This document shows, piece after piece, positions 1 to 4,807 of a DNA stretch of 33,203 bases. Source of the DNA: Candidatus Adlerbacteria bacterium GW2011_GWA1_54_10 (GTDB lineage Bacteria; Patescibacteriota; Minisyncoccia; Phycocordibacterales; SBAW01); NCBI GenBank assembly GCA_001004665.1, contig LCRO01000004.1, positions 1 through 33,203 of the forward strand, written 5' to 3'. The first letter of the stretch is position 1. Every line of letters starts with the position of its first letter. The position numbers were made by a program, and so were the translations under genes. The notes under the pieces were generated by a model. The model was not told where the DNA came from, made no database searches, and saw only the letters and a program-made list of their open reading frames with translations.

Positions 1-49
1 TGGGGGGAGGAATCCCGCGCCGTCCTCGCTCTGATTTTTTTGCGCGACA
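1..49 (+). repeat. Left arm of 49-bp exact inverted repeat; contains right half of a GC-rich hairpin followed by TGATTTTTTT (terminator-like for + strand)
   Basis: Positions 1-49 are the exact reverse complement of 2418-2466; the repeat may extend left beyond the window. Confidence 0.93.
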
Positions 50-50
50 A

Positions 51-1328
51 TTATGTAGTTGAAAGAGCTTTTGCACCAATATCACTTCGGTATTGCATAC
101 CCTCAAACTGAATCAGTCGCGCCGCTTCGTATGCGCTGTTAAGCGCATCGCGGAGCGTGTTGCCCGTTGCGGATACACCGAGTACTCGTCCACCGGAAGT
201 TTTTAATTCATTTTCAAAAATTGTCCCAGCATGGAACATGACGACATTAGACACACGCTCCGCCTCGGCTACGCCACGAAGCGGCACACCTTTCTTGTAT
301 TCGTCAGGATAACCACCTGAAGCTATAACTACGCACACAGCAAAACCGGAGTTCCATTCAATCGCGAGTTCGGCGAGTGTTCCGTCTACACAAGCTTCTA
401 AAATATCGAGTAAGTCAGTTTTTAGGAGGCGCATATAGCTTTGCGTTTCAGGGTCGCCGAACCTCGCGTTGAATTCCAACACTTTCAGTCCGGTACTTGT
501 CATTTTGAGTCCGGGGTAGAGTAAACCAGAAAATGGTCGCCCACACTTTGTAAGTGCCTCAATTGTTGGACGAACAACTTGTTCGCCAACAATTTTGAGC
601 GTGTCAGCACTTACCCATGACACAGGAGCGATTGTCCCCATACCGCCAGTATTCTTGCCCTCATCGTTATCATGTATCGGTTTGTGGTCTTGCGCGGGTG
701 GTAGCAAAACGAAAGTTTTGCCGTCACAGAACACATGAATGGAAATTTCTTGGCCATCAAGAAATTCCTCAACAACCACTTCGTTTCCAGCTTCCTTATG
801 GGCATAGTCAACCATGATTTCCGCGAGTGCGCCTTCCGCTTCTGCGAGTGTTTTACAAACATAAACGCCTTTGCCAAGTGCAAGTCCACTTGCTTTGACA
901 ACGATAGGCGCACCGCGTTCGCGAACATATGAAAGTGCTTTATTGTATTCGCTAAAAATCTTGAATGTTGCTGTTGGTATATTAGCTTCGCTCATCAAAT
1001 TTTTCGCGAACGCCTTTGATGATTCGATTTCTGCGGCGGTACGCGTCGGCCCAAAAATTCGCAGTCCTCGCAAACGAAAAGTGTCTACAACACCAAGAGC
1101 AAGTGGGTCATCGGGTCCGACGACAGTCAGACCGATTTCATTTTTCTCGGCAAATTTTACAAGTCCGTCAATGTCGGTAGCTTCAATCGGAATATTTTCC
1201 GCAACTTGGCGCGTGCCGCCGTTTCCGGGCGCAACATAGAGTTTTCCGATACGAGGCGATTGTGCGAGTTTCCACGCTAACGCGTGTTCTCTCCCGCCGC
1301 TACCGATTATTAGGACATTTGTTTTCAT
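51..1328 (-). CDS. purD: Phosphoribosylamine--glycine ligase (GARS)
   Basis: 425 aa; MKTNVLIIGSGGREHALAWKL N-terminus, GPDDPLALGVVD, ATP-grasp region ...HKPIHDNDEGKNTGGMGTIAP. Confidence 0.97.
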   Translation of the reverse strand: MKTNVLIIGSGGREHALAWKLAQSPRIGKLYVAPGNGGTRQVAENIPIEATDIDGLVKFAEKNEIGLTVVGPDDPLALGVVDTFRLRGLRIFGPTRTAAEIESSKAFAKNLMSEANIPTATFKIFSEYNKALSYVRERGAPIVVKASGLALGKGVYVCKTLAEAEGALAEIMVDYAHKEAGNEVVVEEFLDGQEISIHVFCDGKTFVLLPPAQDHKPIHDNDEGKNTGGMGTIAPVSWVSADTLKIVGEQVVRPTIEALTKCGRPFSGLLYPGLKMTSTGLKVLEFNARFGDPETQSYMRLLKTDLLDILEACVDGTLAELAIEWNSGFAVCVVIASGGYPDEYKKGVPLRGVAEAERVSNVVMFHAGTIFENELKTSGGRVLGVSATGNTLRDALNSAYEAARLIQFEGMQYRSDIGAKALSTT

Positions 1329-1337
1329 TTTTGGTAA

Positions 1338-1631
1338 TCAAAACTTTTTTGGCTCAAATTGAATAATTTGAAAACCGTATTTATCAACTTCCTCTTGTGG
1401 CCAAAAAGTTTGGCCTTTGGTTTTGAGAATATAAGTGGCGACAACTTCAATTTTTCTTCCAGTGTATTCTTCCTTGTCTTTATCCCATTCTTCCAAAACC
1501 AAAGTATCACCCTCATTCACTTCAAAATTAGCAAGACGCAATTCCAGCTTTTTCTTGCCAGAAATGATTTTTTCAAAATACTCTTGCCAAACTTTTTTAT
1601 TGATTGTTGCCATAATTTTTTGATTATTCAA
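1338..1631 (-). CDS. ASCH/PUA-like (DUF3850-type) domain small protein
   Basis: 97 aa; KIISGKKKLELRLANFEVNEGDTLVLEEWD resembles ASCH proteins; start may be the internal MATINKKVW. Confidence 0.7.
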   Translation of the reverse strand: MNNQKIMATINKKVWQEYFEKIISGKKKLELRLANFEVNEGDTLVLEEWDKDKEEYTGRKIEVVATYILKTKGQTFWPQEEVDKYGFQIIQFEPKKF

Positions 1632-2388
1632 ATTCTAAATATAGAGGACTGTGGTCAGAAACCTCATCGGTCAATACCTTGAAATCTTTTATGATAATTT
1701 CTTTACTCGTCAAAGCATAATCGGCAAATTTTTCCGCCTTGGTATAGAAACTCGTGCGCGTTGAAATTATGTTGTGTTCTCTGATGAGATTACGAAGTCC
1801 AAAATCCTCTAACTTTTTGATACTTTGGGTATTGGGCAAAAGATTAAAGTCGCCAGACATAACATACGGATTAGATAAAGTTTTCATAAACTGAATAATC
1901 CTATCCGATTGCAACAATCTATCTTCACTGTCGCCCTTACCGCCACCGTTCCATAGGCCATGAAAATTCAAAATAGAGCGGTTGCCATTTTTAGTTGCAA
2001 TCGTGGCAAATTGAACATTCCGCGCGTGAAGACCAACATCGCCTTCGGGGATATGACCTCTGTCTTTATAAACAAAAACATCGCCTTCCGAAATCACATC
2101 TAAATCTTTTTTGACCAACATCATAAGACCATAATTATCCAAATGATGTGGTTTGAAATATGCCGTATGGCTTTCAAGTAGAGTTGAAATTTCTTGCATT
2201 CCGTAAACCATGATATTGGAATGGTCAATACTAAGTCCACCAGCAGAATGACCCTCCAAATGTTCGTATGGAGCAGACCAAACTTCTTGCAAGCAAAAAA
2301 CATCTACATCTTTATGAGCCGCAAAAAATGCAAGGAGTTTTTCCTTTCCTGCACGACCGCCCCATGTATTTAATGATATAAGTTTCAT
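1624..2388 (-). CDS. Endonuclease/exonuclease/phosphatase (EEP) family protein
   Basis: 254 aa; MKLISLNTWGGRAGKEKL, DVFCLQEVW, MSGDFNLLPNT, DHSPLYLEF are EEP active-site motifs. Confidence 0.9.
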   Translation of the reverse strand: MKLISLNTWGGRAGKEKLLAFFAAHKDVDVFCLQEVWSAPYEHLEGHSAGGLSIDHSNIMVYGMQEISTLLESHTAYFKPHHLDNYGLMMLVKKDLDVISEGDVFVYKDRGHIPEGDVGLHARNVQFATIATKNGNRSILNFHGLWNGGGKGDSEDRLLQSDRIIQFMKTLSNPYVMSGDFNLLPNTQSIKKLEDFGLRNLIREHNIISTRTSFYTKAEKFADYALTSKEIIIKDFKVLTDEVSDHSPLYLEFE

Positions 2389-2417: not shown

Positions 2418-2466
2418 TGTCGCGCAAAAAAATCAGAGCGAGGACGGCGCGGGATTCCTCCCCCCA
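2418..2466 (-). repeat. Right arm of 49-bp exact inverted repeat
   Basis: Reverse complement of 1-49, base for base. Confidence 0.93.
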
Positions 2467-2493
2467 ACCCCCTCCTCCCGCGTCCGTCCGAGC
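2424..2493 (-). terminator. Rho-independent-terminator-like hairpin with T7 tract (minus strand)
   Basis: GCGAGGACGGCGCGGGA (2438-2454) pairs with TCCCGCGTCCGTCCGAGC (2476-2493) with small mismatches; on the minus strand it is followed by TGATTTTTTT. Confidence 0.65.
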
Positions 2494-2501
2494 ACCGCAT
2501 T

Positions 2502-3019
2502 TCGCCCCGCCGACTGCCCGAATACTTGGAGGGCAGAACCCAGAAAGAAAAACACCCTTTCCTTTTTCAAAAGAAATTTCACCCCCGCCAAATCAGAAAT
2601 GCAAGGTGTGTTTTTTCTTTCTGGGTTTCCGCCGAGTCCGCCGCGAGGCGGTGGCGGGGCGATTCGTCGAGCGTACGATTTAGGTCAGAGCCACCACGCG
2701 CTCCGCGCGTGAGATGTCAGTCAGGGTTCTGCTGGAAATAAGTCCGAACCTTTTGGTATAATGACCACAGCTCGGCGGCCATTCGCCATTGTATTTCTGG
2801 ATTGATTTCGACACGACGGTTCTGCAAAATGCAGTTCGAGCCGATTTGTTTCCGGGCTCCTTGGCGGTTTTCTGCGGTGCGGCTTCGCCGCGCCGAATTT
2901 CTCGCGGGGCTTTTCGCCGCCGGTGGGGGCGGCGAACGTTCGAGCTATTTCAAGCGTAGACCACCAATCCGAATTTGATTTGACGAAGAATCCAACTCGC
3001 GCGCGGCAGAGCCGCGCGC
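2502..3019. repeat. Structured intergenic repeat, copy A
   Basis: Outer stem TCGCCCCGCC (2502-2511)/GGCGGGGCGA (2653-2662); inner hairpin from AACCCAGAAAGAAAAA (2537-); CACGCGC-TCC-GCGCGTG; GGTTCTGCTGGAA...TATAATGACCAC (2725-2768); ATTTGATTTGACGAAGAA (2973-2990); GCGCGCGGC-AGA-GCCGCGCGC (2999-3019). Shared blocks occur in the same order in copy B. Confidence 0.8.
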
Positions 3020-3101
3020 ATGGAGGCGAGGGGCGGCACCTGTCTAAATTTCACAAAAACTTCATATAGTATTCACGGCGAAGTAGGTATATTATTGATA
3101 T

Positions 3102-4138
3102 ATGAACAAGCACGTTCAAGGGCTAGACACTGAGCTAACAGAGGCAATCGTCAGCACTCTACGCGAACCAATAATTATACTGGACAAAAATTTGCGCGTA
3201 ATCGTCGCGAGCCGCGCTTTTTACGATACATTTAACGTGGAGTATGAACAAGTTCACGGAAAAATATTTTTTGAATTAGGGAATGGTGAGTGGAATATTC
3301 CTGCACTGCGCGCACTTCTCGAACAAGTCATTCCAGAAAAAACAACGGTAGAGGGATACGAAGTCAAGTACAATTTTGTCAGATTGGGTTCGCGTATAAT
3401 GATAATAAATGCGCGCGAGATAAAATTTGGTAATCGTCGACAGAATATTTTCCTTTCAATCTCGGACGTGACGGAGCAGCGCAAGACGCAACATGACAAG
3501 GAGAATTTGATGTTGCAAAAAGACACCCTCTTGAAAGAGATGCGTCACCGCATAGCAAACAGCCTCCAACTCATCGCGAGCATCATTCTTTTGAAGGCCG
3601 GTAGCGTAAAATCTGATGAGAGCAAAAAGCATTTGGAAGACGCGCACGACCGTATCATTTCTATTGCAACCGTGCAGCGCAATCTCGACCCCTCCAGCGA
3701 GGGTTCTCTGGTGCCGGTCATAGATTATCTAAAGATTCTCTGTGAAAGTTTAGCGAAGTCAATGATAGGCGGCCGTAAACCGATAACCATAAAGGTGACG
3801 GGGGGGGTGGAACAGTTACACCCGATGAAGCTATTGGCTTGGGGCTCATCACGACGGAACTGGTTATGAACGCATTGAAACACGCCTTCCCCAAGGGTGA
3901 GGGTCAAATAACAGTCACATACGAATCAAAAGTACCGAATTGGAATCTCAGCATCGGCGATGATGGTGTCGGATTATCTGCGACCGAGATATCCACTCGT
4001 GAGGGACTTGGTACAAGCATTGTTGAATCGCTGGCAACTCAACTGAACGCCGAGGTTCAACGAGAAAGCACATTGCGCGGCACGGTCGTATCCGTTTCTC
4101 ATTCGCAGAAAAATCTGAAATCGTCAGTTATGGTTTAA
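3102..4138 (+). pseudogene. PAS-domain sensor histidine kinase (HisKA_2 type) interrupted by a frameshift at a G8 tract
   Basis: ORF 3102-3869 carries PAS and MRHRIANSLQLIASIILLKAG (HisKA_2); ORF 3839-4138 carries GLITTELVMNALKHAFP...LSIGDDGVGL (HATPase_c). Reading across 3800-3807 in the -1 frame joins them as ...GGTVTPDEAIGLGLITTELVMNALKHAFP. Confidence 0.85.
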
Positions 4139-4169
4139 GGGTGGGTTTGGGGCAAGCACATACAGATTT

Positions 4170-4496
4170 GGAGCCTCGCCATACAAAATTCTTTAAGGAA
4201 TGGAGAGGCTCCACCCCTCGCCTTTGCCGCCCATTCCTTTTTTCAAATCCCCCCCGCAAAAATCAGAATGGAGAGGAACGGCAAGGCGAGAGGGCGGGAC
4301 GCGCGGTACTCCGCGCGTGGCGGGGTTCAGAGCGTCGCCACGCGATCGGAGCGCACTTTTTTAGGTCAAAGTCACCACGCACGCGGAGCGTGCGAAATCA
4401 GGGGTTCTGCTGGAAGTGGGTTCTGACTTTTTGATACAATGACCACCACATTTGATTTGACGAAGAACCGACAGGGCGCGCGGCGGAGCCGCGCGC
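4170..4496. repeat. Structured intergenic repeat, copy B
   Basis: GGAGCCTC (4170-4177)/GAGGCTCC (4205-4212); CTCGCCTTTGCCG (4217-4229)/CGGCAAGGCGAG (4279-4290); ACGCGCGG-TACT-CCGCGCGT; GCACGC-GGA-GCGTGC; GGTTCTGCTGGAA...TACAATGACCAC (4403-4446); ATTTGATTTGACGAAGAA (4450-4467); GCGCGCGGC-GGA-GCCGCGCGC (4476-4496). Confidence 0.8.
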
Positions 4497-4501
4497 ATAG
4501 A

Positions 4502-4527
4502 GTGGCATTTCCGCAAGGAAATGCCAC
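4502..4527 (-). terminator. Perfect 11-bp hairpin with GCAA (GNRA) loop downstream of the PCD gene
   Basis: GTGGCATTTCC-GCAA-GGAAATGCCAC; no strong T-tract, so terminator function is uncertain. Confidence 0.5.
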
Positions 4528-4543
4528 ATAGCTGGATTTATAA

Positions 4544-4807
4544 TTATTTTGAAATTTCGTCTATTTTGCCCGCCAAAATATAGTCTTTTTCGGAAACGCC
4601 ACTCACATCGTGGGTCGTCAGATCCAGTACGACTTTATTGTAAAAAATATGGACGTCCGGATGATGCCACGCTTCTTCGGTGATAGTCGCAATTTCATTT
4701 ACAAACCGCACCGCCTCGACGAAGTTGTTGAACTCGAAAATCCTGCAGATTTTCTGCCCGCCAATATCCGTCGTCCAGCCGATATAAAACAATCCCATGC
4801 GGGACAT
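4544..4807 (-). CDS. Pterin-4a-carbinolamine dehydratase family protein
   Basis: 87 aa; FEFNNFVEAVRFVNEIATITEEAWHHPDVHIFYNKVVLDLTTHDVSGVSEKDYILA matches the PCD/DCoH signature. Confidence 0.88.
   Translation of the reverse strand: MSRMGLFYIGWTTDIGGQKICRIFEFNNFVEAVRFVNEIATITEEAWHHPDVHIFYNKVVLDLTTHDVSGVSEKDYILAGKIDEISK

Follow-up and report, generated by a model that had tools for sequence, protein, structure and literature searches.

The window, which is the whole 33,203-nucleotide stretch of DNA analysed here, is contig C4 of the ∼596 kb genome of Candidatus Adlerbacteria bacterium GW2011_GWA1_54_10. Near its left end, two repeat copies, A (2502–3019) and B (4170–4496), lie on either side of a gene for a sensor kinase. 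An earlier, sequence-only reading had described ordered blocks shared by A and B, and all of these blocks are found in the order claimed. Self-comparison aligns the direct-repeat pairs 2575–2598/4245–4268, 2679–2720/4360–4401, 2724–2768/4402–4446 (80%) and 2973–3025/4450–4502 (85%), while ∼200 bp (2769–2972), itself another element end, is present in A and absent from B. The same reading took A and B to be two same-orientation repeats. The copies are real, but each is composed of an IR2 end and, directly adjoining it, an IR1 end, and is not a single repeat. By comparison with relatives, where autonomous elements lie at tRNA 3′ ends, each IR2 end corresponds to a P half of an attachment site and each IR1 end to a P′ half. 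The parts of the array, named on this basis, are as follows.

1–49, minus strand: left IR2 arm (inner part) of the first cargo module; exact reverse complement of 2418–2466 (100%), the contig breaking inside the repeat
51–2388, minus strand: cargo of the first module, between the inverted IR2 arms
51–1328, minus strand: purD (Pfam)
1338–1613, minus strand: DUF3850/ASCH protein (Pfam)
1624–2388, minus strand: Exo_endo_phos nuclease (Pfam)
2418–2770, plus strand: right IR2 arm, copy A; long hairpin at 2537–2627 (16-bp perfect stem plus extensions) and small GC hairpin at 2695–2711
2743–2770, plus strand: putative P half TCCGAACCTTTTGGTATAATGACCACAG; the motif lies 28 nt away from where the tRNA-like core (CCAC) ends
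2771–2966, plus strand: IR2-type end of a second element, a remnant inside A that is absent from B; matches C6:48448–48565 of the same genome and inverted pairs in loci L046–L050
2939–2966, plus strand: putative P half of the remnant, TTCGAGCTATTTCAAGCGTAGACCACCA, 28 nt
2973–3025, plus strand: putative P′ half/IR1 arm of A, beginning ATTTGATTTGACGAAGAA; GC hairpin at 2999–3019; aligns to both IR1 arms of the LSR module of L043
3102–4138, plus strand: passenger gene for a PAS-HisKA_2 sensor kinase; open reading frames 3102–3869 and 3839–4138, the frame broken at an 8-G run (3800–3807)
4169–4448, plus strand: IR2 arm of B; hairpins at 4169–4213 and ∼4217–4290, small GC hairpin at 4378–4394; 83% identical to C6:1981–2168 of the same genome
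4421–4448, plus strand: putative P half of B, TTCTGACTTTTTGATACAATGACCACCA; core CCACCA at 4443–4448
4450–4526, plus strand: putative P′ half/IR1 arm of B; GC hairpin at 4476–4496; can be aligned with both of the inverted IR1 arms that enclose the L043 LSR

The P halves, each exactly 28 nt, end at 2770, 2966 and 4448, and the P′ halves start at 2973 and 4450; copy A would thus have the order P, remnant end, P, P′, and copy B the order P, P′. The sensor kinase gene does sit between the repeats, as had been claimed, and more precisely between the P′ of A and the P of B. We read the array as what appears to be a degraded tandem array with a recombinase-less passenger kinase at that position. No LSR (large serine recombinase), the type of enzyme considered below, was found in the window array, and no tRNA next to it within the window. 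To the right of the P′ arm of B are ordinary genes, without a matching outer end. A gene for pterin-4a-carbinolamine dehydratase lies to the right of copy B (4544–4807); such a gene is also island cargo in L044 (8122–8508), and the one in the window may be cargo too. At the 8-G run, the kinase frame breaks off between the HisKA_2 and ATPase parts; the run could represent a phase-variable tract, the mark of a pseudogene or a homopolymer error.

Further copies of the repeat, whose existence the sequence-only reading had made a test, are present elsewhere in this genome, with E values as low as 7e-42, and 47 of 118 relatives, spread over the order, have copies as well. The IR2 of A is 91% identical over 275 bp to a sequence in G087, which belongs to a different family, and many of the copies lie at the ends of contigs. 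Both observations are as expected of a mobile multi-copy repeat.

Two-module elements in related genomes

The relatives detected by LSR search belong to the Patescibacteria (CPR). A single scan based on an LSR alignment yielded 80 named LSR loci, mostly from CPR lineages, with a few labelled Omnitrophota, Marinimicrobia and others. Repeat blocks in these relatives often occur as inverted pairs, and self-comparison resolves them into two abutting inverted-repeat modules. The usual layout, as seen in such comparisons, is tRNA-CCA / IR1-LSR-IR1′ / IR2′-cargo-IR2 / old downstream DNA. At locus L042, a 2.25 kb cargo module with 242 bp inverted repeats (100%) overlaps by 4 bp a 1.67 kb LSR module with 131 bp inverted repeats (100%). 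Loci L043, L044, L047 and L050 have a layout of the same kind, and the outer end of the LSR module coincides with a tRNA 3′ end in L042, L043, L044 and L050.

A terminal inverted repeat of at least 40 bp surrounds the LSR (IR1) at 59 of the 80 loci, and a complete IR2-bounded cargo module adjoins it at 32 of the 80. Where enough sequence is available, a tRNA on the opposite strand is present at the LSR 3′ side (51 of 65 loci). Among the 41 cases in which IR1 is flush with the tRNA, it overlaps the tRNA 3′ end by 2–8 bp in 38, or in 39 if one overlap of 10 is included, with a mode of 6. Inverted-repeat arms are ∼98% identical within an element and ∼50% identical between elements. Relative to the tRNA, the LSR always has the same orientation (41:0), so that the near-identity of the arms does not come from simple flipping between those of IR1; cargo orientation is 27:5. 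The architecture is also found on large contigs, L131 (685 kb), L150 (236 kb) and L126 (202 kb), which argues against a simple assembly artefact. At L093 and L102, the LSR module is bordered by the P half of another element, a tandem junction as in A and B.

Two further loci may be mentioned. At L051 (4895–4920), the LSR module seems to have been reduced to a P′ stretch of 21 nt, which lies between tRNA-Ala and a P half in inverted orientation. L133 is a 13 kb contig with 93% identical inverted repeats at both extreme ends (1–218/13075–13291) and a further, LSR-flanking pair inside, and may represent a whole element.

The recombinases have Resolvase, Recombinase and Zn-ribbon domains, as LSRs do, and conserved YxRKS and DRLAR motifs. 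LSR elements with the same domain set are present on C6 and C15 of the genome that carries the window. The LSR phylogeny tracks the target core, with 15 changes against a mean of 24.2 in shuffles and a value as low in 0 of 200. Close LSRs are found in distantly named hosts, and many CPR lineages are represented among the hosts. In genomes of this kind, LSRs that belong to other subfamilies are without such repeats. A phage or plasmid origin of the LSR was considered and rejected, as its best relatives in phage and plasmid collections are just ∼23–32% identical; seven loci came from IMG/VR and are uninformative on a circular form.

Two side observations concern LSR genes more broadly. An LSR of another subfamily at C1:61087–64527 of the same genome (L226, 4088–7527) is beside an ATPase-like gene and near ribosomal protein genes, with neither inverted repeats nor a tRNA. 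Family members L120, L126, L132, L105, L141, L144 and L156 are in records labelled Deltaproteobacteria, Marinimicrobia, Desulfobacterales, Latescibacterota and Omnitrophota; these represent either transfer beyond the CPR or mis-binned contigs.

Often, the cargo is made up of genes for restriction-modification or other kinds of defence. Of 95 cargo proteins, 11 are matches to small xre-type HTH regulators, and others match parts of type I, II and III restriction-modification systems, Mrr, GmrSD, OLD/AAA ATPases, NUDIX and a lysine exporter. In one LSR clade the cargo is a single gene, mostly without a confident Pfam match.

Probable attachment sites at tRNA ends

At the junction of IR2 and IR1, a 6-nt core equals the last six bases of the adjoining tRNA. 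Cores are GCACCA (Leu, Arg, Phe), CCGCCA (Ser), CAGCCA (Gln) and CCACCA (Ala, Tyr); over 4–6 nt they equal the target tRNA's own 3′ end, and the far cargo end usually carries at least the same 4-nt core. The T-loop motif TTCGA lies 23 nt away from the end of the tRNA, whereas in the P half (IR2) its distance to the same point is 28 nt. This holds at 34 of the 37 loci that could be assessed; with a tRNA call two bases too short, the distances are 21 and 26. In a serine integrase, the motif of the zinc-ribbon domain was shown to be shifted by 5 bp between attP and attB (Rutherford et al., PMC3783163). The spacing of 23 versus 28 nt, taken with this 5-bp rule, points strongly to the tRNA as attB and to IR2-core-IR1 as attP, at base resolution. 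The shared core and the 5-bp shift are thus both found, and the P halves in the window are also 28 nt.

For the window itself, the target tRNA was not found in the assembly when the genome was searched with patterns for tRNA ends carrying CCAC. The sole match to such a pattern, a tRNA at C2:323, is without an adjoining element. G087, whose IR2 is closest to that of A, has it at a tRNA-Ala.

No orthologous empty site was found at the sites compared, which were alr beside L053, the flank of L044 and the pterin dehydratase gene next to B. At alr, the congener G118 also carries the element, with its contig ending in IR2; relatives are too divergent at the L044 flank for such a comparison; and another copy of the pterin dehydratase gene belongs to the cargo in G024. 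In G036, a hairpin adjoins attR of the tRNA-Ala element; in relatives, this hairpin is found directly 3′ of tRNA-Lys, -Glu, -Ile and -Arg in the same register; on this ground, the element most likely split the G036 tRNA-Ala from its own terminator. Hairpins directly 3′ of tRNA genes, with a distal arm that is the reverse complement of the tRNA 3′ end, were also seen in L245 (G006), L248, L249, L250 and L053 (3233–3286), and are either native terminators or miniature element derivatives.

Taken as a whole, A and B are very probably attachment-site junctions (P-core-P′) of integrated mobile elements moved by a CPR subfamily of LSRs. The LSR would recombine attP (IR2-core-IR1) with attB (the tRNA acceptor end and T-loop), and integration would rebuild the tRNA and push the old downstream sequence to the far end. 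Repeated integration would give tandem arrays whose internal junctions are again P-core-P′. The window would then comprise a cargo module (purD, the ASCH protein and the nuclease) ending in A, the remnant end in A and, after it, the recombinase-less kinase.

The long, near-perfect terminal inverted repeats around cargo and the occurrence of solo ends could also be expected if A and B came from a DDE transposon, either as its terminal inverted repeats or as MITE derivatives. What lies between the repeats, however, is an LSR and not a DDE transposase, and insertion is at tRNA 3′ ends with a tRNA-identical core, not with a random target duplication, which makes this origin extremely improbable. 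The repeats accordingly do not class as a DDE transposon or MITE. The sequence-only reading had named a match to an IS or MITE end as an outcome that would tell against it; the ends of a mobile element are matched, so that in essence this was obtained, though no IS or MITE of a named family is involved.

Another alternative keeps the serine integrase and regards the islands as ordinary tandem ones with unremarkable ends, the inverted repeats being decayed duplicates and the kinase a chromosomal gene caught between remnants. The degraded state of the window array fits this: the LSR is absent, the kinase frame is interrupted, a remnant end lies inside A, and the array has no clear boundary on the right. 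In intact relatives, however, the arms of the inverted repeats have the ∼98% versus ∼50% identity pattern given above, and they recur in most loci, so the inverted repeats are a maintained part of the design; the kinase, moreover, is placed precisely from a P′ half to a P half, and the cores of these match. We consider this alternative unlikely.

If A and B are attachment-site junctions as proposed, the elements possibly form a distinct two-module class, a suggestion made tentatively. The predicted excised circle would have two inverted attP sites, both embedded in long inverted repeats that are nearly identical; one arm would hold the recombinase and the other the interchangeable cargo. After integration, the resident central attP might still be usable, so that modules are exchanged, collapsed to hairpins or stacked as recombinase-less cassettes. 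This would amount to integron-like gene capture by a serine recombinase on tRNA ends across the CPR.

Hairpins and the RNA question

The hairpins fold strongly as DNA relative to shuffles, with z = −4.6 for the long hairpin of A, −4.9 for the long hairpins of B, −3.1 and −3.5 for the small GC hairpins and −3.8 and −4.4 for the terminal GC hairpins. That stem pairing survives sequence change, as noted from A and B, is borne out by two-sided changes across 12 copies: stem position 4 has C-G in eight copies and A-T in three, position 7 has G-C in eight and A-T in three, and at position 10 the pair is A-T, G-C or T-A. These counts are from hand-defined arms, as MAFFT misaligned the 3′ arms of the hairpins.

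From the kept pairing, selection on folded structure had been proposed; as evidence of selection on a folded RNA, the pairing gives no support. The "conserved" hairpin loop is inverted relative to its own flanks in two genomes (L009, 186–275; L052, 6402–6524), and the B hairpin at 4169–4213 (4170–4209) is matched on the opposite strand by C6:1899–1938 of the same genome. Loops that are opposite in different copies with the flanks unchanged point to intra-hairpin, DNA-level strand switching. Strand switching during palindrome correction can leave arms complementary even where no RNA is under selection, and a loop in both orientations speaks against a sequence-specific RNA loop.

A structured non-coding RNA of a kind not yet described, with a role in trans or as a cis-regulatory leader, would nevertheless account for the strong hairpins, the compensatory stem changes and a −10-like TATAAT at 2757–2762. 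Against it are the inverted loops and the absence of an Rfam match. Covariance models of Rfam 15 run over the whole window find, above the gathering score, only a tRNA, in agreement with the earlier statement that no named RNA family is recognizable, and the best match in the repeat region is below threshold (E 0.12). Copies are often inverted pairs bounding islands and are not 5′ of one gene class. The conserved unpaired blocks of A and B, GGTTCTG...TAYAATGACCAC and ATTTGATTTGACGAAGAA, are also at odds with the suggestion of a new RNA or repeat class, as these blocks, the most conserved ones between A and B outside the hairpins, correspond to serine-recombinase att-site halves around a tRNA-end core. 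An RNA of this kind is thus very improbable.

The hairpins would instead belong to the element ends, where they may insulate transcription, serve replication or be a by-product of palindrome correction. A terminator scan was not above chance; a function as terminator or insulator is possible.

Comparison with known systems

Both LSR-moved islands and tRNA-targeted islands are known kinds of elements. In the literature, as far as it was covered, no description was found of a CPR-wide LSR subfamily with a T-loop attB and bipartite long inverted repeats with a second attP. Few mobile elements have been recognized in the small genomes of CPR bacteria, and the present family is widespread and precisely delimited: the predicted enzyme, attP, attB and core are given at base-pair resolution for dozens of tRNA targets. 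The elements would offer a route for defence and accessory genes between distant CPR lineages, and could be the cause of many of the contig breaks in CPR assemblies. With their natural, conserved tRNA targets, these LSRs are candidate integration tools, and the paired inverted attP sites raise a clean mechanistic question.

SCCmec and ECC, the staphylococcal and enterococcal cassette chromosomes, are LSR-moved islands (PMC6222049). Similar features are variable cargo, a chromosomal target at the 3′ end of a gene, att sites that contain imperfect inverted repeats, and tandem or composite islands. SCCmec and ECC, however, have a ccrAB pair and rlmH as the target, whereas here there is a single LSR of another subfamily with many tRNA targets, and in addition a second, inverted attP-like site and long terminal inverted repeats around both modules. 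Assignment to SCC or cassette chromosomes, defined by ccr genes and the rlmH 3′ end, was rejected, since many tRNA isoacceptors are targeted with one LSR per element.

Most known tRNA-targeting islands and integrative elements use tyrosine integrases. The present elements differ from tRNA-targeting islands, including tycheposons, in that an LSR would read the T-loop and acceptor end as attB.

The window resembles an integron cassette array in having a single passenger gene between same-orientation structured recombination sites. The recombinase, however, is an LSR and the sites follow the spacing rule of a double-stranded attP. An integron, defined by an IntI tyrosine integrase with attI and attC sites, was rejected on the basis of the LSR beside the repeats in relatives and the LSR spacing of the sites; features of integrons were not found.

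The yeast 2-micron plasmid differs in using a tyrosine recombinase, whereas here a serine recombinase integrates the element in chromosomes and the circle is a predicted one. The likeness to that plasmid is in the design, a circle with two inverted repeats that contain recombinase sites and with the recombinase in one unique arm.
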